NCBI GenBank assembly: GCA_949152475.1
Contig: OX424558.1
Location: 35,722,651-35,786,650, forward strand
DNA length: 64,000 bases
Reading direction: 5' to 3'
From: Terebella lapidaria
Lineage: Eukaryota > Annelida > Polychaeta > Terebellida > Terebellidae
Shown here: positions 1,084-58,427 of the stretch, piece by piece
Position numbering within the stretch: position 1 is the first letter of the stretch
Layout: each line of letters opens with the position of its first letter
Notes under the pieces: model-generated
The model's database searches: none
Told to the model about the DNA's origin: nothing
The model's input: only the letters and a program-made list of their open reading frames with translations
Translations under genes and position numbers: made by a program

Positions 1084-4000
1084 TTATACATCATCTCGGA
1101 AGCGGACTGGTGGTTTCACTGTACGAGCAGACCGAGTGCGGTATCCACCTGTTCCATCTGTGTCATTCCTTTCATTCTCGATTCCTCCAGGTGTGGCAGG
1201 TGCTACTTCACTTTGTACATGTGTATCAGCATGATCAGGCGCTACCAATGCAGGTGTATCAGCAGAAGGATGTGTGTCCAGTCCTGTGTTGGTCTGAATG
1301 TCAGGCATTTCTCTCAACTGCACACGGTTACGACGGATCCTTCTTCCGCCTTCAGTCTCAATCATATACGATCTATCGTTCTCTGGATCCTGCGACAAGA
1401 CTTTACCTTAGAACCACACTTTTCTCTCTTTGTCGAGGACTCGCACATTCTGTCCTGAGATCAGAGGTGGGAGATCTCTTGTGTGTCTGTCAGCATATTG
1501 TTTCTCCTTCTGAACCTTTGCACTGATCCTTTCATGGTACTCCTCATTTTGCACTGTAGCACAGCGTGATGGCAACATTGTGGATATCGCCCTTCCAAAC
1601 AACAACTCAGCCGGACTTGGCATGTGGCTGTCTAAGGGGGTTGCTCTGACGTTGAGCAAAGCAGTTGCTATATCTGTCTTTGCTTTCAGACATTTCCGGA
1701 TTATTGGTTTTATGTAACGAATCTGGCGCTCGATGAAGCCATTGCCTTGGGGATGACGTGGACTACTAGTCTTGTGTTCAATTCCCCACTCATCACAGAA
1801 GTTATTGTAGTCATTTCGGAACTGCGGCCCATTGTCTGATATAATTTCTCGAGGAACTCCAAACATACTGATAGTGTCTTTGGTAGCAGCTATCACGGCG
1901 TGTGCAGATGTGGACGACAGTTCTTTCACAACTGGGTAACGACTGAAATAGCCTGATATTATGACGTAGTCCCTGTTGCCAATTGAGAAGAGATCCGTTC
2001 CAAGCTTAGTCCATGGCGTTGATGGTCGTTCGTGCATCACCATTGACTCTCTTGGCTGTTGAACTTGCAACTCTTGACATACATCTGATTCACATCTCTT
2101 GCACATGGTTTCAACATCCTTACTGATGCGGGGCCAGAAGACACTTTCACGGGCCAGTCTTCTAGTTTTCTCTATGCCCTGATGTCCAGCATGTAGCTGT
2201 TTCATGATGTTCTCATGTAGAGGTGGTGGTATGAGGATCTGTTTCCCTTTGAATATGATTCCACTCTCAACTGCCAATTCATCTCTGTACGTCCAGAAAT
2301 CTCGAAGGACACTTGGTAATTCCTGGATTCTTGCTGGCCAGCCTGAGAAGATTACCTTGGCAAGACCACTTAATGTATCGTCTCTTTGTGTTTCTTGACG
2401 GATTTCAGTTTGCTTCACAGGAGAGAAGTGCAGTAAGTCTAGCTCTATACTGTCCACTTCACTGAGCTGAATCTCGTCTACATGATGATCCAACTCGACA
2501 TCTTCCTTTTTGTCAGTGTTCGGTAGTCTGGAAAGGGTATCTGCTAGGACCAACTTTGGCCCAGGTTTATAAATCACGTGAAAGTCATACCCTTGGATTT
2601 TGGTGAGCATACGTTGCAGACGTGGTGGCGCTGAATGTAGTGGCTTCTGAAGGATCATTTCCAGTGGCTTATGATCTGACATCACTGTGAACGGTCGGCC
2701 AAAGAGATAATGGTGAAATCTCTGTATACCGTAGACGATCGCCAGACACTCCCGCTCTATGTTACTGTAGCGAGATTGGGTGTCGTTGAGTGTCTTGCTT
2801 GCAAAAGCAACAGGTGTCTTGTTTTGTAGTAGCACGGCACCAAGACCTTTGGTAGATGCGTCAACTTCCAGAGTTACCTCCAGTAGAGGATCGTAGTACT
2901 GCAAACCATTACTCTGTGCAACTTCATGTTTGATTCGTTCAAAAGCAGTTTGATGGTCCTCACTCCACTCGAAAGGTATGTTTTCCTTGAGCAGGTCTCT
3001 CAGGATAATGGTGTGTTCTGAGAGGTTTGGAATGTGTGGCGAAAGGTATGTTATCATTCCAAGGAATTTCTGGAGAAGCTGTTTGTCCTGAGGTGTGGCT
3101 ATTTTCTGGATGTCTTCCACTTTCTCCGGATCAGGGAATACTCCTGTGTCTGTGTATAGACGACCAAAGAAGGCAATCTTGTTTGTCTTCACAACACACT
3201 TCGACGAGTTAAGCACAAGTCCTGCCTTCTGTGCTACTTGGAAGAACTTGATGAGCCTCGCATTGTGTTGTTGTTCATCCTGACCACATATGACGATGTC
3301 ATCACTTATTCCGACACAGCCCTCACACTGCTCAATGATCTGGTCCATGTGTTGCTGAAACACATCTTGGCTGATGCACAGTCCAAATGGCAAGCGTAAG
3401 AAGCAGTATCGGCCAAATGGAGTCCGGAAAGTTGTCAGCTCCTGTGACTTGGGAGCAATCTTGACACTCCAGTAGCCGGCTTTTGCATCTAATTTGGTGA
3501 AGTACTTGGCGTTTGCGAATGCATGATTGATCTCTTCCACGGTTGGAATCTTATGTGGGCATCGTTTTAGTGCATCATTGAGTCTCCTTGGATCCAGGCA
3601 AACTCGTAGACTTCCGTCTTTCTTGGTTGCATAAGTGAGCGATGAACACCAGTCAGTGTGATGATTGACCTTGCGTATGATGCCTTGTGTTTCCATGGAA
3701 TCCAGTTCGCTCTTAATTTTGGTTTTCAGGTGAATGGGACAACGCCTTGGTGGGTCGATGTGAGGTGTGCTACCTGCTTTGAGATGCAGTTCAACATCTC
3801 CGTCCAGACATCCAATCCTGTCAAAACAGTCTGGAAACCACCATTGTAGGTCACTGAGAGAACTGATCTTGGCTCCAGGTGGAGGTCCTGTGTGTTGGGA
3901 CTGGGTATTCTCAGAAATCTCTGCAATGCTGTTCTGGGTGAGCAAGTTCCTGTTGACAACAGATTTATCAAGGCTGATAAGATCCAGAGCTTTACTTGCG

Positions 4001-4188
4001 TGAAGACCCAAAATGGCTGGACCAGGTACATCAACCACATAGAACTTGTGCTCTTGGTAAGGCATTTGTGTGTGTTTCTTTAGTGATAGCATCAGTGATC
4101 CACAGCAGCGAATGGGGTGTCCACTGTACGATGTACATTTGTTTGTATGTCCTGAGCGGGAGTGTATTGCCTCCGGACCCTGTGTCAA
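1084..4188 (-). pseudogene. Gypsy pol region: RT, RNase H, integrase
   Basis: Minus-strand pol of the retrotransposon. In order it shows a reverse transcriptase with an ISDD catalytic box, an RNase H stretch beginning EVDAS, and an integrase with an HHCC-type zinc-binding head followed by a DDE core. The tail, rich in proline and charged residues, is typical of K02A2.6-like pol proteins. The aspartic protease (DTG) lies upstream in the gag frame. Pol overlaps the gag frame by about 150 bases in a different frame, which suggests programmed frameshifting as used by this family. The region looks nearly whole, with about one break. The close match of the flanking LTRs says it is recent. Confidence 0.9.
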
Positions 4189-5221
4189 CTTTCAGTTGAA
4201 GTGATCCTTGTACATTGGGGTGGCTGTGTGATACTTGTAGAGTGACAAATGCTTCCTCCCTCTGGTTGATTGGACACAGTACCAAGTCGCTCATAGTGAT
4301 AGCATAGAATGCTTTTGTGTATGTGGTGTCATCTTCAGACACGTCAATTTCATTCTGTGATTTGTGACCACGATCACCAGATTTGTCTCTAGGTTTTCTG
4401 AATTTGTCCCGTGATTTAGAGCGCCAGTTGCGTGACCTGTGTGATCGATTGTTCCTGTTTTGTGACTGGGGCCCACGACTCTGTCTTTTTGTTTTCCGGC
4501 AGTAGTCTCTCCAGTGCCCCTTTGCTCCACATGCACCACATTCATCGTAGTATGCAGGACAGGTTGCATAGGCATGGCTGAGGCCACAGTTGCCACATGT
4601 ACGGGACTTGCGTACTGCATTCACAGTGGCTGTTTGTGTTTGTGATTGTGACCGCATGGTACTCAGGGAAGCCTGAGAGGCGAGTATGGCTTCATACTCT
4701 CTAGCTCGTTCTAGCACTGTCTTGATGGGATGGCCTTTTGGTTTTGTTAAAAGCTCTTTCCTGAATTCTTCAAATGGTGTGTGCAAGATAATCATTTCTA
4801 TGAGTCTTTCATTGAGTTCATCGTCACCGAATTCACATTTTGTCGCCTTTTCACGCAGGCGTGACACAAACTCTGCAGTAGTTTCATTTTCTTTTGGGCG
4901 AATGTTACTCAGTTCAAGTCTGTGAACTCGGAAATTGATTTTGACAGATGCGTCGACTTGACCCTCTAATAGAGTCCAAATTTGCAATGGGTCACTCTGT
5001 TGTGCATCATTAAGCTCTGATGACAGTATCCGACGCATACCCTCATCACCAAGTGCAATTTTTATTTTGGTAGCTTTTTTGGCATCATCAGTCACATCAT
5101 TATCTTCCAGGAATAGCAACATGCGGGCTTTAAATGCTTTGAAAGAGTCTGCCAATGGTTCATACTTCCAGTCCATAGAGGGCATTTTACTCGCCATGAT
5201 GATGTAGGTAGGTATAATCAC
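4031..5221 (-). CDS. Gypsy gag with zinc knuckles and protease start
   Basis: A 396-residue minus-strand frame opening the retrotransposon. The N-terminal two thirds has the charged, helical character of a gypsy capsid. Around residues 205-245 there are two closely spaced cysteine/histidine knuckles, the second fitting CX2CX4HX4C, followed by a basic RS-rich stretch that would bind RNA. Near the C terminus a VDTGSGG motif marks the aspartic protease. The start codon lies about 220 bases inside the 5' LTR edge, after a short leader. The frame is open and long for its family, consistent with a recent copy. Confidence 0.88.
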   Translation of the reverse strand: MIIPTYIIMASKMPSMDWKYEPLADSFKAFKARMLLFLEDNDVTDDAKKATKIKIALGDEGMRRILSSELNDAQQSDPLQIWTLLEGQVDASVKINFRVHRLELSNIRPKENETTAEFVSRLREKATKCEFGDDELNERLIEMIILHTPFEEFRKELLTKPKGHPIKTVLERAREYEAILASQASLSTMRSQSQTQTATVNAVRKSRTCGNCGLSHAYATCPAYYDECGACGAKGHWRDYCRKTKRQSRGPQSQNRNNRSHRSRNWRSKSRDKFRKPRDKSGDRGHKSQNEIDVSEDDTTYTKAFYAITMSDLVLCPINQREEAFVTLQVSHSHPNVQGSLQLKVDTGSGGNTLPLRTYKQMYIVQWTPHSLLWITDAITKETHTNALPRAQVLCG

Positions 5222-22015: not shown

Positions 22016-25000
22016 TCAAATCAGTTGAACATCCCCAGCGTGGAAGTCCTCCACAAGATGAGTGACATCACAGATCTCGGACTCGGATCCACTCCCGTCA
22101 TACTCCACCCGATAAACAGCAGAAGTGGTGCCCGCTCTTCCTTTAAGGAGTTTGAGAACTTTCCCTGTAAAAATATATATAAATGGAATAGAGAAATGGA
22201 GAATGCTGATTACTCCGAAAATATAGGGTGTAAAGGTCAAAAGAGAAGGTCAGTTGAGATTCACAGTGTACATACGAGTGCTCAGTGCTTACCGGTGTAC
22301 CACTTCTGCTGGCCCGGCTCGTCGAGAATCCAGCGGTGCTTGATGTGCTTCCCGACGAGCTTCGGAACCTTCCTTCGGGTGGATCTTTTCTGGGAGTGGA
22401 CAGCAACCTGTGTCTGGAGCCTCGAGATCTGTGACGGTGGAGGACTCCCAGGTGCAGTGGCTTTCCTATCGATACAAACATTATACAGACTCAATATTCA
22501 TATTTCAACATTAGAAAGCACTACAAAGACAATGTTTATTTAAGACATTTGTGTTATTTTTTATATGATGATAAATCCTCACCTTTTGGTAGCATGGGCA
22601 GAAGCACAGGCCTCAGAGATCTGCTGAATTGGTTCCACCTGTAATGGAGGAATCACAAAGATAAATCATAGGTATACAGGTATTGGCTATACACATCAGG
22701 TTAATCTGGCACTGATACATGCAATATGTGGTTTGTGATAATTGTTATTCATGTTGCATTCATGATACACATCATACATGTACTTACAGATTCCCTGATG
22801 CCTGGGTATTTCCCTTTCCGAGGCACTGCCAACTCAGGTAAATAAGAGCCGAAATAGAATTTGGATAACTTGGGTAACATAACAGTGTTCCAAAAGCTAT
22901 CATCCCTTGGAATGCGCTCAATGTACACGTCATGGGGATTTATACGCCTTATCATGAGATCGCACCACTTGCAGTCATACGCCTGCATCTGACCCTGTAC
23001 TTGATGGAAGAAAGCATGGTCTTTCTTGAGTTGGAGCTGCCCTTCAGGACTGACAGCCAGACAAAATTGTTTTTTTGTCTTGGCTGCCTCGGTCAACATT
23101 TGGGCAGACCCCGTAGTCAAGACATGCTTGATCTCAAGAAGACCATGCTCCCCATTCTCTTTCACCAGTCGGTCAGTGCTAGCCGCAAGGAAAGGGTACT
23201 GCTTGACAACGGCTAGGCCAGCAGTCTGCAGTTTTACCACCTTTCCCCCTGACTGCCGGGCGAGATACTCACGAGCCGCGTACTCTTCCTGTCTCAGTCC
23301 TAACCTGGTCAACCTCGTGCCATTGAACCGGCTGTAAAGCAACTGGTCTACCAACGGTGCAGCTGCTGTACTTGTTCGGCGTTTGACTATTTTGGCAAAA
23401 TTGGAGGCAGAAAGGCGGAGTCGCCTTTGCTGGAACCAAAAAGCACAACTGCTTTGACCAGTGGTCTTCTGCAAAATAGTCTTACGCTGAACATCTGTGA
23501 CAACAACCTCCCGCTGATAGAAATCAGTTTGCTGCTGAGCCAGCTCAGCACTTGAAATGTCAGGTTCCACCTGCACACTCTGGGGGCCATATGACCTTTT
23601 CGCTTTAACACTAGATGCCTGGGTCTGCCTAAGGCGTTTGCGCTTCTGGGCACGGGCTCGAACTTCAGGACGACCCGCACTGCGTGCAGCACGGGCCAGC
23701 TTCAGAAGTACTTTCCGCCCATGATCCCAGAAGGCAGAGGAAGCTTGTGAATGGGTCACCTGCTCCCATACCTTGGGCGACCACTGAGGCCCTAGGTTCT
23801 TACGTAGGCCAGCCCCAAAACAACGAGCATGCCAGGCGCCCCTCTGACACCGGTTAACCAGTTTCCCACCATCAAACTTGCCCCGGATGGCCATCCAAGA
23901 CTCCGCCAGATTAGTGGTTTGATTGCCAATCAAGCTCGACGCCTTGATAGCAAGACGTTCGAGCAAGATTTTGACACCTGCCACCAAACTGGCATCAACA
24001 TCTGATTGACCATCAGGACAATCCCCACGAGCTTCTTCCTGCTCAGCCTCAGTGGAGCCCTCGAGCCACACCTGCAGCTCGGAAGCAGCCACGTCATCAG
24101 CATTATCACATTCCGAAGGTGAGGAGGACGTTGTCGGCTGGATAACGGACTGTTTGACGGTGGGAACAGACTGAACAGGAGGAGCTGACAAAGGTGCCGT
24201 ATCGCATGCCACACCAGAATCAGCTTGGCGTACTCTACAGAAGTCCACAGAGCAATTGGTGTGGACTCCGAATACATGCCAAATGCTGTTCCGAATGTCA
24301 CATGCTAACAGCTTAGCAGCATCTGTTTTGTTCTGAAGTTTAGACCGCATTCGAATAGCACATCTAACTCCAGAAACCAAACGGATACGCTGCTGCTTTG
24401 TCAGTTTACCACGACCTTTGAAATCTGGATTATCCTGCACAAGCCGCTCGAGGCTGTCACGCAGGCACTTAGTGGCATGGTTAGCACACTCAAGCTTCCT
24501 AACATGACGACACCAAGCGGGGCCACGATCCAAAAGTGTAGCCATCACTGAACTGTCACCGTCTGCAATCAGGCGCATGAAGCGAACACCATACTTGCTC
24601 TCACAGGTGGAGAACGCCTCCAAAATTATGTCCGACTCCATGGCCTGACTGCTGGCTGTCCAGTTGCAAAAACACTTATGTGGTTTTGGCTTACACTGGA
24701 TGCCATCGGCAACAGTACAGATTTGGCACAGTTTGTTTCGTACACCAATGTGCAAGATTTTATCAGTTTCAGCCCCAACAATGATGGCCACACCACCAAG
24801 GGCGTTGTAGGTGTGCTTGTGACTACGCTTGCTCCAACCACCATCTGCAACAACAGTTATAGCCGGAACATCTTCATGAAAATCCCCCCGCTCTATCGCC
24901 AACCTCTTCTCCTCCTCAGCAGCCCTCCTCATTTCCTGCTCTAGAGTGTCATGCCACCATGAACCAATCTCCTGCTCTAAGCTACAAAACATCCCCCCAC

Positions 25001-25604
25001 GCATACCCGGAACACCTAGAGTACCCATAACCTCACTGAGTCTGGCATGACCTCCGCCAGTTGTCATCTGGCCCCAAACTGCTCTAAGATTAATATCATA
25101 GAAATTTTGCCCACCAATATCCAATTTGGAAGATCCCGGAATTTTGAATTCTTTTTGACAACCCAAGCAAACGACGCTCAGGATTGATGCGAGGCCCCGA
25201 TGCGACACTTCTCCCAAAAATTTGACAGGCAGCCCCCCACAATCAAGCAAAGAATGTGCCGCCTCGCATCTCATGCAGTGAACGGTAATGTTCACAACAT
25301 GTACTCCCAGCTGTTCTAAATTCAAAAACCGATAGCCCTGCTTATCAGCTAAAGGTGCTGGTTTGGCCTGTTTCACAAACTGCACCTTCAGTCCCTCCCC
25401 AATCCTAGCACTATAGGAGCCGTAGTCACCAGCACCCACAACAGGTCGTGGGGGCGAGCGCAAATCCCCATGAGACGCTACATCAGAAACACATTCCAAG
25501 GAATGACGGATACGCGCCACCAACCTCTTACCTTTAACTTTCCTAAAGTGCTTACCACCAGCACGTCCAAACTTAGATGGCGCTTTACCCTTGGGTTTCC
25601 CCAT
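22016..25604 (-). CDS. Mutator-like transposase fused to YqaJ nuclease, 4 exons
   Basis: Four exons read on the minus strand: 22788..25604, 22583..22638, 22293..22465 and 22016..22164. All introns are GT..AG and the phases agree, giving 1064 residues. A basic start is followed by CXXC pairs (C110/C113, C146/C149) that probably bind zinc. A Mutator-like DDE core follows: D254 in VVADGGWS, D348 in LIADGD, a C2H motif at C373-H376, and E568 in NLAESW. Residues ~715-930 match the YqaJ-type PD-(D/E)XK nuclease, with D811 and E824-x-K826. The last ~75 residues (VGKHIKHRW.. KWYTGKV..) resemble a Tudor/chromo-like fold. The frame is intact and may be a mobile-element enzyme or a domesticated host gene. 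The start is the first Met and has a strongly basic leader; no upstream in-frame extension was seen. Confidence 0.85.
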
Positions 25605-43541: not shown

Positions 43542-44141
43542 TCATTCGGCATCGCGTTGTTCTTGGTTCTGCAACATTCGTGTTTTATTTCTGTTTTTAT
43601 CCAGTTCGTCCGTATAGCCAATTTCCACCTGGTTGATGATAAACTTGAATATTTTACACCACGCGTCCCTCGCGACACCGCTGTACGTCCGGCCCAAGTA
43701 TACCGTCCAAACGTCGTCCATTGCATAGTAAAACAAGTCGAATATGTCGTGGGTAAAGCCTGGGATTCGCGTGTGATGCTCGCCTAATTTCCGCAGGTTG
43801 GGGATGTGGATGACCTCCCAGGCGTCCATGTTCACAATGGTCATGCGGACGGCGTTTATGAAGCGTATCGAATGGCTCTTGAAGTACGGGTGTTTGACGA
43901 GAGCGCTGTCATCGGCGTCTTTAAACGGGAAGAACTCCTTGACCTCGGGTCGCAGCTCGAAAATCTTGAGGAAGATGTCCCGCGCGAGATCCGTCGTGTC
44001 GCCCTCGAGCTTTGCCCACGTTTCATGTATGAACTTTCGCTCGCGTTCGTTGAACTCGGGGGTAAAACTGCTATCGGCGTCAGGGAGAGGCGGCCGAACA
44101 TTCGTCGCTGGTTTACAACCGGCGGACGGCCCAGCTCCCAT
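43542..44141 (-). CDS. Globin, probable membrane-anchored GbX/neuroglobin type
   Basis: The uninterrupted 199-residue frame binds haem: CD1 phenylalanine in EFFPF (~70-73), E7 histidine H90 in FKSHSIRF and F8 histidine H123 in LGEHH. E7 and F8 are 33 residues apart, longer than in myoglobin and closer to neuroglobin or globin X. The start MGAGPS fits an N-myristoylation signal (G2, S6) and C9 could be palmitoylated, as known for globin X, so a membrane-attached sensor or redox role is inferred. The coding region has no intron, unusual because animal globins normally keep B12.2 and G7.0 introns. A ctccacttcag acceptor nine bases before the start suggests a 5'-UTR intron. The last ~34 codons lie in duplicated segment B. 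The coding region is much richer in G+C than its flanks. Confidence 0.9.
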   Translation of the reverse strand: MGAGPSAGCKPATNVRPPLPDADSSFTPEFNERERKFIHETWAKLEGDTTDLARDIFLKIFELRPEVKEFFPFKDADDSALVKHPYFKSHSIRFINAVRMTIVNMDAWEVIHIPNLRKLGEHHTRIPGFTHDIFDLFYYAMDDVWTVYLGRTYSGVARDAWCKIFKFIINQVEIGYTDELDKNRNKTRMLQNQEQRDAE

Positions 44142-46752: not shown

Positions 46753-46756
46753 ACAT

Positions 46757-47323
46757 TGTGATGTATATGTGGTTAGCTGCGAGTGTTTGGCCCGCGAGCC
46801 GGCCAGAAAACTTTCCCGGCCGAGAATTTTTCTTTTGATGTTTTTTGTGTGCCTGAGCGTGTGAGCTGCTGGATTCCGCGTTGGGCGGATAAAACTTCAC
46901 CGCCTGCCCGAGAGCTGGAGAGAGAGACTTCGACCGCGCGGACGGCAAGTCATGGACTGCTAAATCGGATTGCTATATACTTCTGGAAGCTATTTGGACA
47001 TTTGTGATGAATTATATTTGGAAACTATAACATATTTTTGGATGGACCTTACGCCGGAATCACCGAGGATATGACATCTTGCCGAGTTAACGGAATTCGG
47101 TGATCTTTGTGGACATTTGTAAACAAGCGGAATCGCGTGTGTGTATGAAACTGGAACTGTGCTTACGTGCCGAGCCGCACGCCGGCTGATTGTGTATCGC
47201 GGACTCGTATATTTTCACCTGTTTCCCTGTATGCATGAATGTGTGTGTATTTGATGTTTTGAGTGTGAGATTAAAGTTTTTGTATATACAATGTGTTTGT
47301 TTTCCTGTTGCTGATACGTGACA
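46757..47323 (+). repeat. 5' LTR of the Gmr1-like element
   Basis: 567-bp direct repeat starting TGTGATG and ending CGTGACA. It contains an attaaa word near 47272 that could serve as the polyadenylation signal in the 3' copy. Its sequence is GC-rich in the first third. Confidence 0.94.
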
Positions 47324-47418
47324 GGAAAATTGGGGGCTCGCGTCCGGGAACGATTTGTCGTTGATTTCTTGTTTGTCGGTTGTATTCTATTTGGTGATTT
47401 TTTTTTTCTCGGTCATGG

Positions 47419-50400
47419 GTGCATTCTGACTGCACGCGCGCCTACGGGTGTCGCATCTGCAATGGAAACATCGGCCATTTAACATTAACACACTGGCGTC
47501 TGTTAAACTTTATCACAATGGCAGCAGCAGAAACTTTTCTACGGGCACCAAGCCTTGAGGTCTTATTATCATTCAAGAAAGTTGAATTGTTGGAAGTTTG
47601 CAAGTCGTTAAACCTAGAAGGAAAACAATCTATGCGCAAGTCTGATTTACGTCGGCTTGTTGTTGATTACTTGGTGGACAATGATGATTTGCCTGAGGAT
47701 GTGTTTGAGCACTTACCTCCTGATCCCCTTGATATCTCTCAGACACAACTTGAGATGGAAACACAGATCAAACTGAAACAAATGGAAATACATGCACAAA
47801 TACAAATGCAAGAAAGAGAACTCCAAACAAAAACAGAAATTCGTGAAAGGGAATTACAAGCGCAGACAGAGCAAGAAAAAATAAATGCAGAAACTCGTTT
47901 AAAAGAATTAGAGATTAAGCTTGCTGAAGCTGAGTCAAGAAGGGATCAGTTCGATTTGACTAAGCATGTGCGCCTTGTACCCCCTTTCAACGAATCTGAA
48001 ATTGACAGGTACTTTTCACACTTTGAGAAGGTTGCCAAAAATTTGAACTGGCCCGTAAAAATGTGGCCCATGTTGTTGCAGACAGTGTTGAAAGGTAGAG
48101 CCCAGGAGGCCTACGCTGCACTTTCAGTGGCTGATTGTACTGATTATCAATGTGTCAAAGCAGCCATTCTCAAAGCGTATGAATTGGTTCCTGAGGCATA
48201 CAGACAAAAATTCAGAAAATACAAGAAACAAGACAATGAAACTTACGTTGAATTTGCTCGACAGAAAGAGGTGTTCTTTGAAAGATGGTGCAATTCTAAA
48301 GATATTGATTCGGATTTTGAAAAGTTAAGACAAACAATTCTCATTGAAGAATTTAAGAGGTGTGTTAATGATGACTTAAAGACTTACCTTGATGAGAAAA
48401 AGATTGATGATCTTCATGAATTGGCCACCTTTGCTGATGATTATGCACTAACTCACAGGCATCGTAACAATCACAAACAAAAGTCATTCAGTACTCACAA
48501 GCCTGGTCCAAGTGACAAAAGTCCAGGGGCTGTTCCAGCTGATCAGTCTCCTGCTGTGGATGATCACGGTGCTCGTGCAGACAAAAAGTCTAGCACAGTT
48601 TCTCACAGTCCTAGTTCACGAGGTTCTCATTCCCAAGGACGTGGTTATCGTCAGTTCAGTAGTTGGGGTAGAGGTGCTCCAAGGTCGGGTGGTCCGACAT
48701 GTTACTACTGTAAGAAGCCAGGACATGTCATATCTGATTGCTGGGCTAGAAAAAATGAAAGTAAAGAAACTTCTGAAGTGAAGACTGATGGTTTGGTCAG
48801 TAGTGGCCATGGCAACATGGGTTTCACTAGTCCAGTACATGGTGAGATTACTGATCATTTTGTTGCAAAGAGCAATGATATCAGAGATGAGTACAAACCG
48901 TTTGTCTCAGATGGCTTCGTGTCATTGGAGGACGACTCATCTGGAAAAGTACCAATAAAGATTTTGCGTGATACAGGAGCGACACAGTCCTTGCTCTTGG
49001 CCAGTACTTTACCTTTTGATTCCAACTCATCCACTGATGAGTTAGTTATTGTCCGTGGTCTTGAAAGTGGATTTGTTGATGTTCCACTCCACCGTGTGAA
49101 TCTAGTTTCGGACTTAGTATCTGGGAGTGTAGTAGTGGGGATATTGCCCACTCTGCCTGCAACAGGCATATCCTTATTGTTAGGAAATGATTTGGCCGGG
49201 GGAAAAGTGATCCCTGAGCCCAGGATGTCGTCTGAGCCAGTGACAATGCCTGAAGTAGAGAAAATTGGAGAGGAGATTCCAGACGTGTTTCCCTCTTGCG
49301 CAGTCACCCGAGCTCAAGCCAAGAAAATGACTGATGATGATGACAAAAATGTGGATGACACTAACGTTGATTTGTCTCAAACGTTCATGAACATTGAGAA
49401 TTTCTCTAGTGTCACTGATTCTGGTGATGTAGACATGTCATTGTCGAGACATAGTCTTGTGGAAAAACAAAAGGAGGATCCAAGTTTGGCCCCTTTGTTT
49501 GATTCAGTGTTGTCAGATGACGAGTTGGATAAGGTTCCTACGGGTTACTTTATCAAGAACAAGGTCTTAATGAGGAAGTGGCGACCCACTGATGTCCCTG
49601 CCTCAGATGATTGGTCGGTTGTACAGCAAATTGTAGTTCCGGAAGTGTACCGGTCGGAAGTGTTGAGATTAGCTCACACTCTGCCATTAGCTGGACATCT
49701 TGGTATAAACAAAACTTACTACAGAATTACTAGACATTTCTATTGGCCTAAAATCCGACAGGATGTAGCAGATTATTGCAAGACCTGCCATACCTGTCAG
49801 ATGGTAGGAAAACCTAACCAGAAAATTCCAGTGGCCCCATTACAGCCCATTCCAGCATTCCAGGAGCCTTTCAGTCGGGTGATCATAGATTGCGTTGGCC
49901 CACTGCCAAAATCTAGGTCTGGGAATCAGTACTTACTGACGGTCATGTGTGCGTCCACACGGTTTCCAGAGGCCATACCTCTTCGTAACATTTCATCAAG
50001 GACAGTAGCCAAGGCTCTCATCAAGTTTTTCACGTTAGTAGGTTTGCCTTCCGAAATTCAATCAGATCAGGGTTCAAATTTTATGTCAGGGCTGTTTCAG
50101 CAGCTAGTTTGTCAAATGGGTGCAAAACAGATAAGATCTAGTGCATATCACCCAGAGTCACAGGGTGTTCTCGAAAGATTTCACTCCACCCTGAAGAATA
50201 TGATCCGTACCTATTGTTATGAGAATGAGAAGGATTGGGACGAAGGTATCTGTTTGTTGTTGTTTACAGCGAGAGAGGCCGTTCAGGAGTCGTTAGGATT
50301 CAGTCCGTTTGAGTTAGTGTTCGGTCACACTGTTCGCGGACCACTGAAACTCATGAAGGAAAACTGGTTGCAAGAGAATGGTGAACCGATGAGTTTGCTC

Positions 50401-52230
50401 GACTATGTGTCTAACTTTCGAGAAAGGTTGACTAGGGCATGTGAGTTGGCTCAAGAGAATTTGAAGTCAGCACAAAGAAAAATGAAGGGTTATTATGACC
50501 AGGATGCAGTCCATCGTAAATTTCAAATTGGACAAAAGGTGTTGGTGTTGTTGCCTATAGTTGGCAATCCTCTTCAAGCACGTTACCACGGTCCATATGA
50601 AGTGGTCAGAAAAATCAGTGATCTTAACTATGTAGTGAAAACGCCTGACCAGAGGAAGCCAACACAGTTATGCCATGTCAATATGTTGAAGCCATATTTT
50701 GACAGAGATACAGGCCAAGAAGTGTACATTGTCCAGGCAGAAAGTCCACCTTTGGGTGAAGATAGATTTGGTGAGGAATTCATGGGTAGAACTAACATTG
50801 GTGTGAAATTGTCAAATTCTCAGATTTTGTCTAATCTGGATGAGAAATTAGCCCACCTACCTATTGAAGAAAAACAAGAACTTTCCAGAGTCATTAAGTC
50901 GTATGATTCTTTGTTTCCTGACGTTCCTAAAAGGACAACTTTTACTTACCATGATGTTGATGTCGGAAATGCTGACCCAGTGAAACAGCATCCGTACAGG
51001 TTGAGTCCTTATAAAGCTGAGGTCATGCAGAAAGAAGTAGCCTACATGTTAGAAAATGGCATCATTGAGCCAAGCCAAAGTTGTTGGTCTTCACCTTGTG
51101 TTATGGTTCCTAAACCAGATGGCTCAATACGGTTTTGCACAGACTACCGTAAAGTTAACCAGTTAACCAAGACTGATTCTTATCCCATCCCTAGAATGGA
51201 AGATTGCATTGATCGTATTGGGAAAGCCCGATACATAACTAAGTGTGATTTACTAAAAGGTTATTGGTGTGCTCCATTGACAGAACGGGCGAAGGAGATT
51301 TCAGCGTTTGTGACACCGAATGGTTTGTTCCAGTATCGTGTAATGCCATTTGGCATGAAAAACTCTCAAGCCACATTCCAGAGAATGATGAATGAATGTC
51401 TCAGAGGCCTTGAAGGTGTCGAAACTTATGTAGACGACATTATTGTGTATAGTGACACATGGCCAGAACACTTGTCTCGATTGTGTAAAATGTTTGAACG
51501 GCTCACAGAAGCCAACCTTACAGTGAATCTGTCTAAGAGTGACTTTTGTCAAGCGAAGGTGACTTACCTTGGTCATGTTGTGGGTCACGGCCAGATTCGA
51601 CCCATTGATGCGAAGATCCAGAGTATCATGCATTATTCTGTTCCAACAAACTTACGGAGTTTGAGAAGATTCCTTGGCATGGCGGGGTACTACAGGAAGT
51701 TCTGTAGAAACTTTTCGGACATCGCGTTACCGCTAACAGCCTTACTGAAAAAGAAAGCAAAGTTTGTTTGGTCAGCTGCATGTCAACAAGCCTTTGAGAG
51801 AGTGAAGGCAATATTATGTACAAATCCTGTTCTTAAAGCACCTGATTTTGGTCTTCCATTTCGTCTTGCTGTTGATGCCAGTGATTATGGTGCTGGTGCA
51901 GTGTTGTTGCAGGCTGACAAAGATAATGTTGAACATCCTGTCTGTTACTTTTCCAAGAAGTTTGATGTTCATCAGAAAAATTACTCAACCATTGAGAAAG
52001 AAACATTAGCTCTTATATTTGCCTTACAACATTTTGATGTCTATGTTTCGTCGCCTCATCATCCTGTACTTGTTTACACCGATCATAATCCATTGACATT
52101 TTTGAGTAGACTTAAGAACAAGAATCGCAGGTTATTACATTGGAGTCTGCTCTTGCAGGAATATAACCTTGATGTAAGACACATCCGAGGTGTTGATAAT
52201 GTGTGTGCTGATGCATTGTCTCGTGTTTAG
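47419..52230 (+). CDS. Gag-pol polyprotein with integrase before RT (Gmr1 type)
   Basis: A 1603-codon frame. A later methionine at 47518 (MAAAETF) has better start context and may be the true start. A SAP-like segment lies near residues 45-90, then a coiled-coil-prone charged stretch, a capsid-like region, one CCHC knuckle (~428-441), a protease DTGA motif (~519), the integrase HHCC head (~752-795) and DDE core (~820-940), a reverse transcriptase with YVDD (~1336), and RNase H (~1477-1595). In ordinary Ty3/gypsy elements integrase comes last. The swapped order is known from the Gmr1 group, first described in deuterostomes. Gag and pol sit in one frame, so no frameshift is needed. Confidence 0.93.
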   Translation: MHSDCTRAYGCRICNGNIGHLTLTHWRLLNFITMAAAETFLRAPSLEVLLSFKKVELLEVCKSLNLEGKQSMRKSDLRRLVVDYLVDNDDLPEDVFEHLPPDPLDISQTQLEMETQIKLKQMEIHAQIQMQERELQTKTEIRERELQAQTEQEKINAETRLKELEIKLAEAESRRDQFDLTKHVRLVPPFNESEIDRYFSHFEKVAKNLNWPVKMWPMLLQTVLKGRAQEAYAALSVADCTDYQCVKAAILKAYELVPEAYRQKFRKYKKQDNETYVEFARQKEVFFERWCNSKDIDSDFEKLRQTILIEEFKRCVNDDLKTYLDEKKIDDLHELATFADDYALTHRHRNNHKQKSFSTHKPGPSDKSPGAVPADQSPAVDDHGARADKKSSTVSHSPSSRGSHSQGRGYRQFSSWGRGAPRSGGPTCYYCKKPGHVISDCWARKNESKETSEVKTDGLVSSGHGNMGFTSPVHGEITDHFVAKSNDIRDEYKPFVSDGFVSLEDDSSGKVPIKILRDTGATQSLLLASTLPFDSNSSTDELVIVRGLESGFVDVPLHRVNLVSDLVSGSVVVGILPTLPATGISLLLGNDLAGGKVIPEPRMSSEPVTMPEVEKIGEEIPDVFPSCAVTRAQAKKMTDDDDKNVDDTNVDLSQTFMNIENFSSVTDSGDVDMSLSRHSLVEKQKEDPSLAPLFDSVLSDDELDKVPTGYFIKNKVLMRKWRPTDVPASDDWSVVQQIVVPEVYRSEVLRLAHTLPLAGHLGINKTYYRITRHFYWPKIRQDVADYCKTCHTCQMVGKPNQKIPVAPLQPIPAFQEPFSRVIIDCVGPLPKSRSGNQYLLTVMCASTRFPEAIPLRNISSRTVAKALIKFFTLVGLPSEIQSDQGSNFMSGLFQQLVCQMGAKQIRSSAYHPESQGVLERFHSTLKNMIRTYCYENEKDWDEGICLLLFTAREAVQESLGFSPFELVFGHTVRGPLKLMKENWLQENGEPMSLLDYVSNFRERLTRACELAQENLKSAQRKMKGYYDQDAVHRKFQIGQKVLVLLPIVGNPLQARYHGPYEVVRKISDLNYVVKTPDQRKPTQLCHVNMLKPYFDRDTGQEVYIVQAESPPLGEDRFGEEFMGRTNIGVKLSNSQILSNLDEKLAHLPIEEKQELSRVIKSYDSLFPDVPKRTTFTYHDVDVGNADPVKQHPYRLSPYKAEVMQKEVAYMLENGIIEPSQSCWSSPCVMVPKPDGSIRFCTDYRKVNQLTKTDSYPIPRMEDCIDRIGKARYITKCDLLKGYWCAPLTERAKEISAFVTPNGLFQYRVMPFGMKNSQATFQRMMNECLRGLEGVETYVDDIIVYSDTWPEHLSRLCKMFERLTEANLTVNLSKSDFCQAKVTYLGHVVGHGQIRPIDAKIQSIMHYSVPTNLRSLRRFLGMAGYYRKFCRNFSDIALPLTALLKKKAKFVWSAACQQAFERVKAILCTNPVLKAPDFGLPFRLAVDASDYGAGAVLLQADKDNVEHPVCYFSKKFDVHQKNYSTIEKETLALIFALQHFDVYVSSPHHPVLVYTDHNPLTFLSRLKNKNRRLLHWSLLLQEYNLDVRHIRGVDNVCADALSRV

Positions 52231-52336
52231 TGGGTTTTTTGTATGTGTCGTTGATGATGATTTTTCTCCTGTAATTTTTAGAGTTTTTGGAGTTTGGTAA
52301 AAAGTTGTTCCAACTTTTTTTCGTTAGGTGGGGAGG

Positions 52337-52903
52337 TGTGATGTATATGTGGTTAGCTGCGAGTGTTTGGCCCGCGAGCCGGCCAGAAAACTTTCCCGGC
52401 CGAGAATTTTTCTTTTGATGTTTTTTGTGTGCCTGAGCGTGTGAGCTGCTGGATTCCGCGTTGGGCGGATAAAACTTCACCGCCTGCCCGAGAGCTGGAG
52501 AGAGAGACTTCGACCGCGCGGACGGCAAGTCATGGACTGCTAAATCGGATTGCTATATACTTCTGGAAGCTATTTGGACATTTGTGATGAATTATATTTG
52601 GAAACTATAACATATTTTTGGATGGACCTTACGCCGGAATCACCGAGGATATGACATCTTGCCGAGTTAACGGAATTCGGTGATCTTTGTGGACATTTGT
52701 AAACAAGCGGAATCGCGTGTGTGTATGAAACTGGAACTGTGCTTACGTGCCGAGCCGCACGCCGGCTGATTGTGTATCGCGGACTCGTATATTTTCACCT
52801 GTTTCCCTGTATGCATGAATGTGTGTGTATTTGATGTTTTGAGTGTGAGATTAAAGTTTTTGTATATACAATGTGTTTGTTTTCCTGTTGCTGATACGTG
52901 ACA
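52337..52903 (+). repeat. 3' LTR of the Gmr1-like element
   Basis: 567-bp repeat identical by eye to 46757..47323, preceded by a ggtggggagg purine tract. Confidence 0.94.
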
Positions 52904-52907
52904 ACAT

Positions 52908-56879: not shown

Positions 56880-58427
56880 TTAGATGGACTCTGTAGGCTG
56901 ACTTCGTCGACTCGGCCAGGCACTTGGACCGCCAGTACGCCGCCTCTCTGTCCAGGTCCTGTCGGAGCTGCTGAGCTGCGAGATCTGTGGGTCAACAGAT
57001 AACATGGACATCGGTGTCATGTGTGGAGCTACATACAACAGTACATTGCTTTTATCATACATTGGATGCAATATATGTAACAGAAAGCTTAGATAGCCAT
57101 TTGCATACAGTCTGCTTATTGAGTCCGCTATCACATTGTCACATCCTGGAATATGGACAGCATGTAAGCTAAAGTCATAATGCAATGCAATGAGTGATAA
57201 AGCCTTGAGAATTGTCAGACACACTATGTTTGTTGATGAACCCTTGTTTAGCATAGCTTCGACGACACGACTGTCTGTGTGGACCACGACACGGCGGCCC
57301 GCCCACGCAGGTCCCCAGCGGAGGGCAGACACACACACAGCTGCGAGTTCCTTAACGTTTATGTGTTCACCAGCGATGTCGGGCCAGTCCGCCTGCCATG
57401 CCGTAAACACCCAGTCCCCATGGCAGAATGCTCCGCCCGCTTGGACACTGGCGTCGGTGAATACGTGGCGCGTCTCCCGGTCATCCCAAATCCGCTTGGT
57501 GTTGTTGCCGTAAACCAACCAGACCTGCCACCACTGTAGGTCCTCCCTGAGCGTCGACAGCGGGGCCTTGTGGGTGGGGTGGTTTAGAGATCGGATGACA
57601 TTGAAGATCGACCTGATGTGTGTTCTGCCCCACGGAATCAGGTGGGCAGCCCAGGAGAGTCTACCCGCCAATGACTCTAGCTGTCGACGTGATATACGCT
57701 TGCGTAGCTGTAGGTCTGCGAGTAGAGTCTGTAGCTGACGTGTTCATAGCGTGTTCATAGCGGCCTGACACTGGGTGAAAGTTTCTCCGGCCACCAGGAA
57801 GTCGTCAAGGAACACTGTCACGGCGTTGAATCCTCTCCTTTCCATCATTCGTCGCACTGATTGCGTTAGTGTGTGGAATAAGTGGGGGCTTTTGCGTGCT
57901 CCAAACGGCAGCCGGGCATCATACATATACTGGGAACGGCCTGTCTTAAATGTCCACTGAAGTCCGGTCAGCTGATACTGTGAGGGGTGAAGTGGCACTA
58001 TCCGGTAGGCTGACTGGAGGTCTACCTTGGCCATAAACCATCCAGGGCCTATCTTGGCTATCGCGTCGTTCACGGACTCGGCTCGGAAAGGCTCTTTGGT
58101 GGCCATGTTGTTGAGGCAGGCATCATCCGGTCGGCTCATATCGTGAATGAGCCGGATACCACCGGAGCTCTTGGGCACTGCTGATATCGCGCTGACGATG
58201 GCTGGTTTGGTGTTCACTGGTACATAGCGTCCGAGTAGCACTTCCTCCTTGATCTGGTCCTCGACAAGGTCACGTGTCTCTGCTGCGGTGGCCGATGTAC
58301 TGTTTCTGACGTAGACATCAGCAATACTGTCTGAGCACATGTTGTCTGTGATGAGAAAACCGTGCCTGATACCGTCCAATATAAATGATCGATCAGGGTC
58401 ATCGCTGGGCAGTTCCTGTTCCCACAA
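56880..58427 (-). pseudogene. DIRS-like reverse transcriptase and RNase H region
   Basis: The reverse transcriptase half has the LPFGARKSP and FLDDF boxes typical of DIRS-type enzymes. The RNase H half has FTDAS, an ELAA glutamate, a HTDSRV aspartate and a downstream VIADSISR aspartate. No methyltransferase domain follows. The region is broken. Confidence 0.82.

Follow-up and report, generated by a model that had tools for sequence, protein, structure and literature searches.

Gmr1 elements are LTR retrotransposons in which the integrase precedes the reverse transcriptase (RT), as described in PMC8220671 and PMC6238403. The fish Gmr elements tabled in the available part of PMC11117352 measure 6058-6465 bp, with LTRs of 337-518 bp and a fused Gag-Pol of 1506-1634 aa. 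The SCAN domain is reported to be homologous to the C-terminal part of the capsid of Gmr1-like elements (PMC4592553), and in the portion available of PMC4131045 it is listed in >50% of frog Gmr elements only. Four crustacean elements were reported in 2013 as the first Gmr1-like elements in protostomes (PMC3587641), and Gmr1 elements in the annelid Lamellibrachia luymesi followed in 2021 (PMC8220671). PMC8556966 places Gmr1 among the clades present in several phyla and states, in its available part, that the Lamellibrachia clade was not found in its own annelid set. Since protostome Gmr1-like elements have been in print since 2013, covering crustaceans and an annelid, the suggestion in the earlier note on this DNA that a copy in a protostome would widen the known range of the group does not hold.

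The window analysed here, the whole 64,000-nucleotide stretch of DNA, carries at 46757-52903 what is very probably a young and structurally whole Gmr1-like Ty3/gypsy LTR retrotransposon copy in a most likely annelid genome, with a CG insertion in its primer site, for which the best explanation is that the element hands this sequence down itself. The element is 6147 bp long on the plus strand. Its 5' LTR (46757-47323) and 3' LTR (52337-52903) are both 567 bp, start with TG and end with CA, are identical at 567/567 bases, and cannot be extended on either side. Comparison of the flanks places a 4-bp target duplication, ACAT, at 46753-46756 and 52904-52907. Both the lack of any LTR difference and the target duplication had been noticed by eye and are borne out. 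The polypurine tract AGGTGGGGAGG, 11 bases on the plus strand (52326-52336), lies directly before the 3' LTR at 52337, and the same string precedes the 3' LTR in six other two-LTR copies. Only 106 bases separate the stop codon from the 3' LTR, which leaves no space for an env gene.

A single gag-pol frame on the plus strand (47398-52230) runs without interruption between the stop codons at 47395 and 52228-52230 (TAG), and counts 1570 codons from its first ATG at 47518. It was searched against Pfam in overlapping pieces of at most 400 aa. The matches are, in order, a SCAN domain corresponding to the C-terminal part of the Gag capsid (48190-48459; PF02023, E 3.8e-11), a CCHC zinc knuckle (48697-48741; PF00098, E 9.7e-05), the integrase H2C2 and core (49636-50154; PF17921, E 7.2e-23, and PF00665, E 3.9e-10), an integrase C-terminal module (50590-50694; PF22938, E 2.2e-13), RVT_1 of the RT (51106-51579; PF00078, E 7.2e-30) and RNase H (51769-52164; PF17919 and PF17917, E 3.5e-35). 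Between the knuckle and the integrase, an aspartic protease (48940-49200, ends approximate) is recognized by motif only, with DTGA at 48970 and LLGND at 49177; Pfam gave no match to it and a PDB search returned designed proteins alone. The order protease, integrase, RT, RNase H proposed from the sequence thus stands by Pfam, with a motif-only protease, and the length of 1603 codons then given was counted from a mechanically chosen GTG. The fusion of gag and pol in one uninterrupted frame is also confirmed, and is usual in the tabled fish Gmr elements (PMC11117352, available part).

The pol domains are of Ty3/gypsy type by their Pfam and PDB matches. The nearest PDB match of the RT is Ty3 of yeast (4OL8, E 1.8e-68), and that of the integrase, which has D-D-35-E spacing by an eye count, is a foamy virus integrase with Ty3 a close second; phmmer found no PDB chain for the SCAN piece. 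RVT_2, the copia-type RT, is absent from the Pfam matches of the frame at E up to 0.1. The presence of RVT_1, RT_RNaseH and Integrase_H2C2 without RVT_2 speaks against membership in Ty1/copia.

To place the element among its relatives, we searched the 761.6-Mb assembly of 438 contigs. Sixteen contigs >28 Mb, C1-C9 and C11-C17, are represented among the matches listed; none of these matches falls on C10, though the contigs with neighbouring numbers are chromosome-sized. Eight of the best 150 RT matches scored, including the element itself, are 95.7-100% identical over the full length. When LTR ends were inspected, both LTRs were found in six of the seven other close copies, and the copy on C17 has the 3' LTR alone within the stretches inspected. 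Comparing the two LTRs within each of the seven two-LTR copies gives a total of one substitution in 4,048 aligned sites (0 or 1 per pair in the six other copies), and one pair has 4 gap columns. Exact 4-bp target duplications flank six of the seven; the copy at C6 23.5 Mb has TAAC on one flank and CAAC on the other. The frame of the C9 copy is split: 360 codons are open at SCAN and 1,249 at RT. The insertions of the element and of these two-LTR copies are recent, as directly seen, like the anatomy and the close copies themselves. Over the 2.1-kb stretch from integrase to RT, the eight copies differ by 0.75-3.4%, and third codon positions hold the largest share of the differences in 28/28 pairs. 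Because of this divergence and third-position excess, several lineages of the subfamily seem to have been active, and not one master copy alone.

The subfamily has two LTR types, one in L047 and L049, the other in L041, L043, L045, L051 and the element in the window. Between the types, alignment columns ~200-500 differ by roughly a quarter to two fifths, against only a few percent in the 200 columns before them and in the coding region; the pattern looks like an exchange of LTR segments among lineages. At a further locus (L124, 236-2336, reversed strand), two LTR matches, the second covering only the first 142 bases of the LTR, lie ~1.3 kb apart with only leader matching between them; this is possibly a non-autonomous derivative of the subfamily.

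The relative order of integrase and RT was counted in the first 80 of the best 150 RT matches, set against 74 of the best 150 integrase matches. An integrase match on the same strand accompanies 61/80 RT matches and lies upstream in 61/61 and downstream in none, at a distance of 988 to 1,780 bases, mostly 1.4-1.5 kb. The other 19 are unpaired, and 7 of them belong to a group at 46-47% identity, two elements of which have the integrase downstream of RNase H, in the usual order. A further 14/14 integrase matches have an RT downstream on the same strand, and all six other two-LTR copies are integrase-first as well. The window also holds a conventional gypsy pol frame on the minus strand (1408-4188) with RT, RNase H and integrase in that order, which contrasts with the element; the adjoining frame at 4031-5221 has no Pfam match.

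The SCAN profile gave 149 matches in the genome among the best 150 candidates scored. An integrase of the integrase-first type lies downstream of 124/149 (123 within 1.62 kb and one at 4.1 kb) and upstream of none; 25 are unpaired. Seen from the integrase, 123 of the best 150 matches have a SCAN match upstream, and SCAN was found within 8 kb of 0 of the 150 best-scoring rve matches, a list that does not contain the 46757-52903 copy. The long frames of two conventional relatives, L055 and L056, start near the protease. Thus, as far as these best-150 lists reach, the type of Gag and the order of the domains go hand in hand. The literature searched, mostly papers readable without subscription, yielded no report of protostome Gmr1 elements with a SCAN-type Gag. 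The present set of well-preserved, recently active Gmr1-like elements with a SCAN Gag comes from a protostome and can help to date when the SCAN fold family arose.

Phylogenetic trees were built for both RT and integrase. The RT tree has 63 rows: 45 integrase-first, 17 conventional and yeast Ty3. It samples 78 loci, from which one without a match, two shorter than 150 aa and 13 near-duplicate or damaged rows were omitted; the order label is by RT similarity alone for L022, L025 and L063 (3/32 group-A rows) and for L058, L068 and L070 (3/17 group-C rows from the genome). One branch, with support 96/89, parts the 45 integrase-first rows from the 17 conventional rows and Ty3. The integrase tree has 41 rows from 53 sequences (four without a match and eight near-duplicate or damaged ones omitted) and places 31 integrase-first rows on one side with support 85/84, below the star level. 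In that tree, no branch separates group A by itself from all other rows, and the conventional integrase of the window sits on a very long branch. Integrase-first rows of both proteins therefore form one group apart from conventional gypsy elements, among the sequences of this one genome and the Ty3 RT, which answers in part the earlier note's call for trees of these regions with reference elements. The order labels on the trees fit a single change of order, with its direction beyond these trees. A scan of IMG/VR for external Gmr1 references returned none. The domain order, the type of Gag and the trees, which are built within one genome, support membership in the Gmr1-like clade; the Ty3/gypsy domains, the fused frame and the size of the element point the same way, in favour of the Gmr1 type that the earlier note had assigned.

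The primer binding site lies at 47331-47350 on the plus strand, after a 7-base spacer; a CG insertion splits its 18 matching bases. A tRNA-Pro(AGG) gene of the host predicts the site TGGGGGCTCGTCCGGGAA. The earlier note's tRNA-Pro-like primer site is therefore upheld in its match to the 3' end of the host tRNA-Pro(AGG) and needs amending for the two inserted bases, which had gone unnoted. We searched the genome for the first 17 bases of the site, allowing 0-4 inserted bases behind position 10 and no substitutions. The 47 matches comprise 37 exact sites and 10 with inserted CG, and no other insert length occurs. A SCAN match, or an integrase match from the best-150 list, lies within 4.5 kb downstream of 33/37 exact sites. 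The CG sites, 10/10, are at LTR ends of the element's own subfamily: the 46757-52903 copy, the six other two-LTR copies, and three partial copies, of which one is an LTR with a 921-bp leader/gag stretch and two are an LTR with leader only. In the two sister copies (76% RT identity) the primer site is uninterrupted. The ten CG sites were selected by the insertion itself, whereas the seven two-LTR copies were selected by RT and have the CG in 7/7.

Three alternative explanations have to be weighed, two of them for the domain order. An assembly join, or the nesting of one element in another, might place an integrase ahead of an RT. One uninterrupted frame spans all the domains, the outer ends carry matching LTRs and target duplications, and the order recurs in all 61 paired matches on many contigs, mostly at the same 1.4-1.5 kb spacing. 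The frame and the paired matches rule out a join as the source of the order, as do the six further copies with both LTRs, and we give join or nesting practically no weight. The integrase-first order might instead have arisen separately here, so that the element resembles Gmr1 without belonging to the clade. In its favour, the trees hold sequences of this genome and the Ty3 RT without a published Gmr1 sequence, and some conventional elements are nearer to the element in RT identity (~46%) than integrase-first group B (37-42%), which makes RT identity alone a misleading guide. However, the RT tree joins both integrase-first groups, and a tree that holds group A together with the 46% conventional group is disfavoured (p-AU 0.026, the group having been named after the tree was seen). 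The SCAN Gag, the fused frame and the size also match vertebrate Gmr elements as far as those are described in the available parts of the sources. A separate origin is thus highly improbable.

The third alternative concerns the primer: the true primer could be a CG-bearing tRNA that the assembly lacks or that departs from the searched string at other positions, and the site would then be exact. The insertion is exactly common to all 10 CG sites, and the tRNA search was an exact-string one, both of which leave room for such a tRNA. However, that search located TCCCGGACGCGAGCC at 10 places in the assembly, each of them one of the primer sites, so no tRNA gene of the assembly carries exactly that string, and a variant tRNA gene with it is rejected as the source of the CG. 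Relatives of the element have the exact ordinary tRNA-Pro site, and among the 178 matches to the pattern of the tRNA-Pro 3' end, none of the 100 listed carries the CG. We consider a CG-bearing primer tRNA unlikely. The preferred reading is that the CG is inherited with the element: two-LTR copies that share it differ by up to 2.3%, and its presence in 10/10 sites across such copies agrees with a primer site inherited from the element, a mode reported for Ty1 and Ty3 (strict inheritance in Ty3: PMC7472051, available part). A young common ancestor of all the copies would weaken this strict-inheritance reading. The shared insertion makes inheritance from the tRNA versus from the element testable in natural copies. 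As a separate observation, tRNA-Pro 3' ends, mostly ~1.1 kb apart, form a long tandem array at C1 92.587-92.698 Mb (L035-L040), and tRNA-Pro and tRNA-Ala genes alternate in L035 and L036.

We then propose a model for the replication of the element, with steps inferred from its domain families. RNA transcribed from the LTR would be translated into one Gag-Pol chain with the integrase ahead of the RT, and the SCAN-type capsid would pack the element RNA. The host tRNA-Pro would prime minus-strand synthesis at the primer site, the polypurine tract would start plus-strand synthesis, and the integrase would insert the copy via a 4-bp staggered cut. The CG insertion would be there because new copies receive the primer-site sequence of the element and not one copied from the tRNA. 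It is tempting to go further, with about even odds: Gmr1 elements with a SCAN capsid would have strongly diversified in an annelid, so that the SCAN-type capsid would date back to the bilaterian root of the Gmr1 clade and not to vertebrates, and one subfamily would stably carry a bulged tRNA-Pro primer site, marking that Gmr1 elements do not copy the primer tRNA into the next generation.

The host assignment draws on contig C438 (15,973 bp). Its COX1 match includes 11 TGA codons in frame and is readable under the invertebrate mitochondrial code. The sampled part of the contig reads nad3, tRNA (tct), nad2, cox1, tRNA-Asn, cox2, tRNA-Asp, atp8, tRNA-Tyr, tRNA-Gly, cox3, with protein names other than cox1 assigned by eye. 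ARAGORN calls a tRNA-Phe on the other strand ahead of nad3, where we would presumably expect tRNA-Lys on the plus strand; otherwise we take the gene order to be the common annelid mitochondrial order. This order supports the protostome host suggested earlier, with an annelid likely and a protostome very likely. Besides C438, the 61-kb contig C417 (L003, L004) has a split COX1 match with in-frame TGA together with tRNA matches, and may be foreign DNA. Elsewhere in the window, three features lie on the minus strand. A single 951-codon frame at 22749-25604 encodes a Mutator-like transposase domain (E 1.9e-75) and, after it, a YqaJ-like recombinase domain (E 1.1e-10). A frame of 199 codons at 43542-44141, 2.6 kb left of the element, encodes a globin domain, and a fragment of another reverse transcriptase lies at 57744-58427.

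Compared with known systems, the element shares the relative order of integrase and RT with Ty1/copia, in which a single long frame is common, whereas its domains are of Ty3/gypsy type. Ty3 of yeast has RT-RNase H and integrase of the same superfamily and carries its integrase after the RT. Its primer tRNA also differs, being tRNAi-Met (PMC5371799, available part). By description, Gmr1-4 of Tetraodontiformes resemble the element in size and in the length of the fused frame (PMC11117352), and in having the integrase before the RT (PMC8220671 and PMC6238403); their hosts belong to another phylum, and the LTR of the element is slightly longer. The frog Gmr elements (PMC4131045), also likened by description, have the SCAN domain likewise, in a different host. 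GyRex4, GyRex5 and other crustacean elements (PMC3587641) are of the same clade as reported and also come from protostome hosts; unlike the element, GyRex4 and GyRex5 are partial sequences, and the likeness is again by description. LGF3 of Lamellibrachia luymesi (PMC8220671) has the same clade name and order as reported, and its host phylum is probably the same. Fewer than 25 Gmr1 elements are reported from Lamellibrachia in the available part of that paper, and one in that of PMC8556966, against 123 of the best 150 integrase matches with SCAN in T. lapidaria. The element at 46757-52903 is thus an addition to a known family, reported from fish, frogs, crustaceans and a worm.
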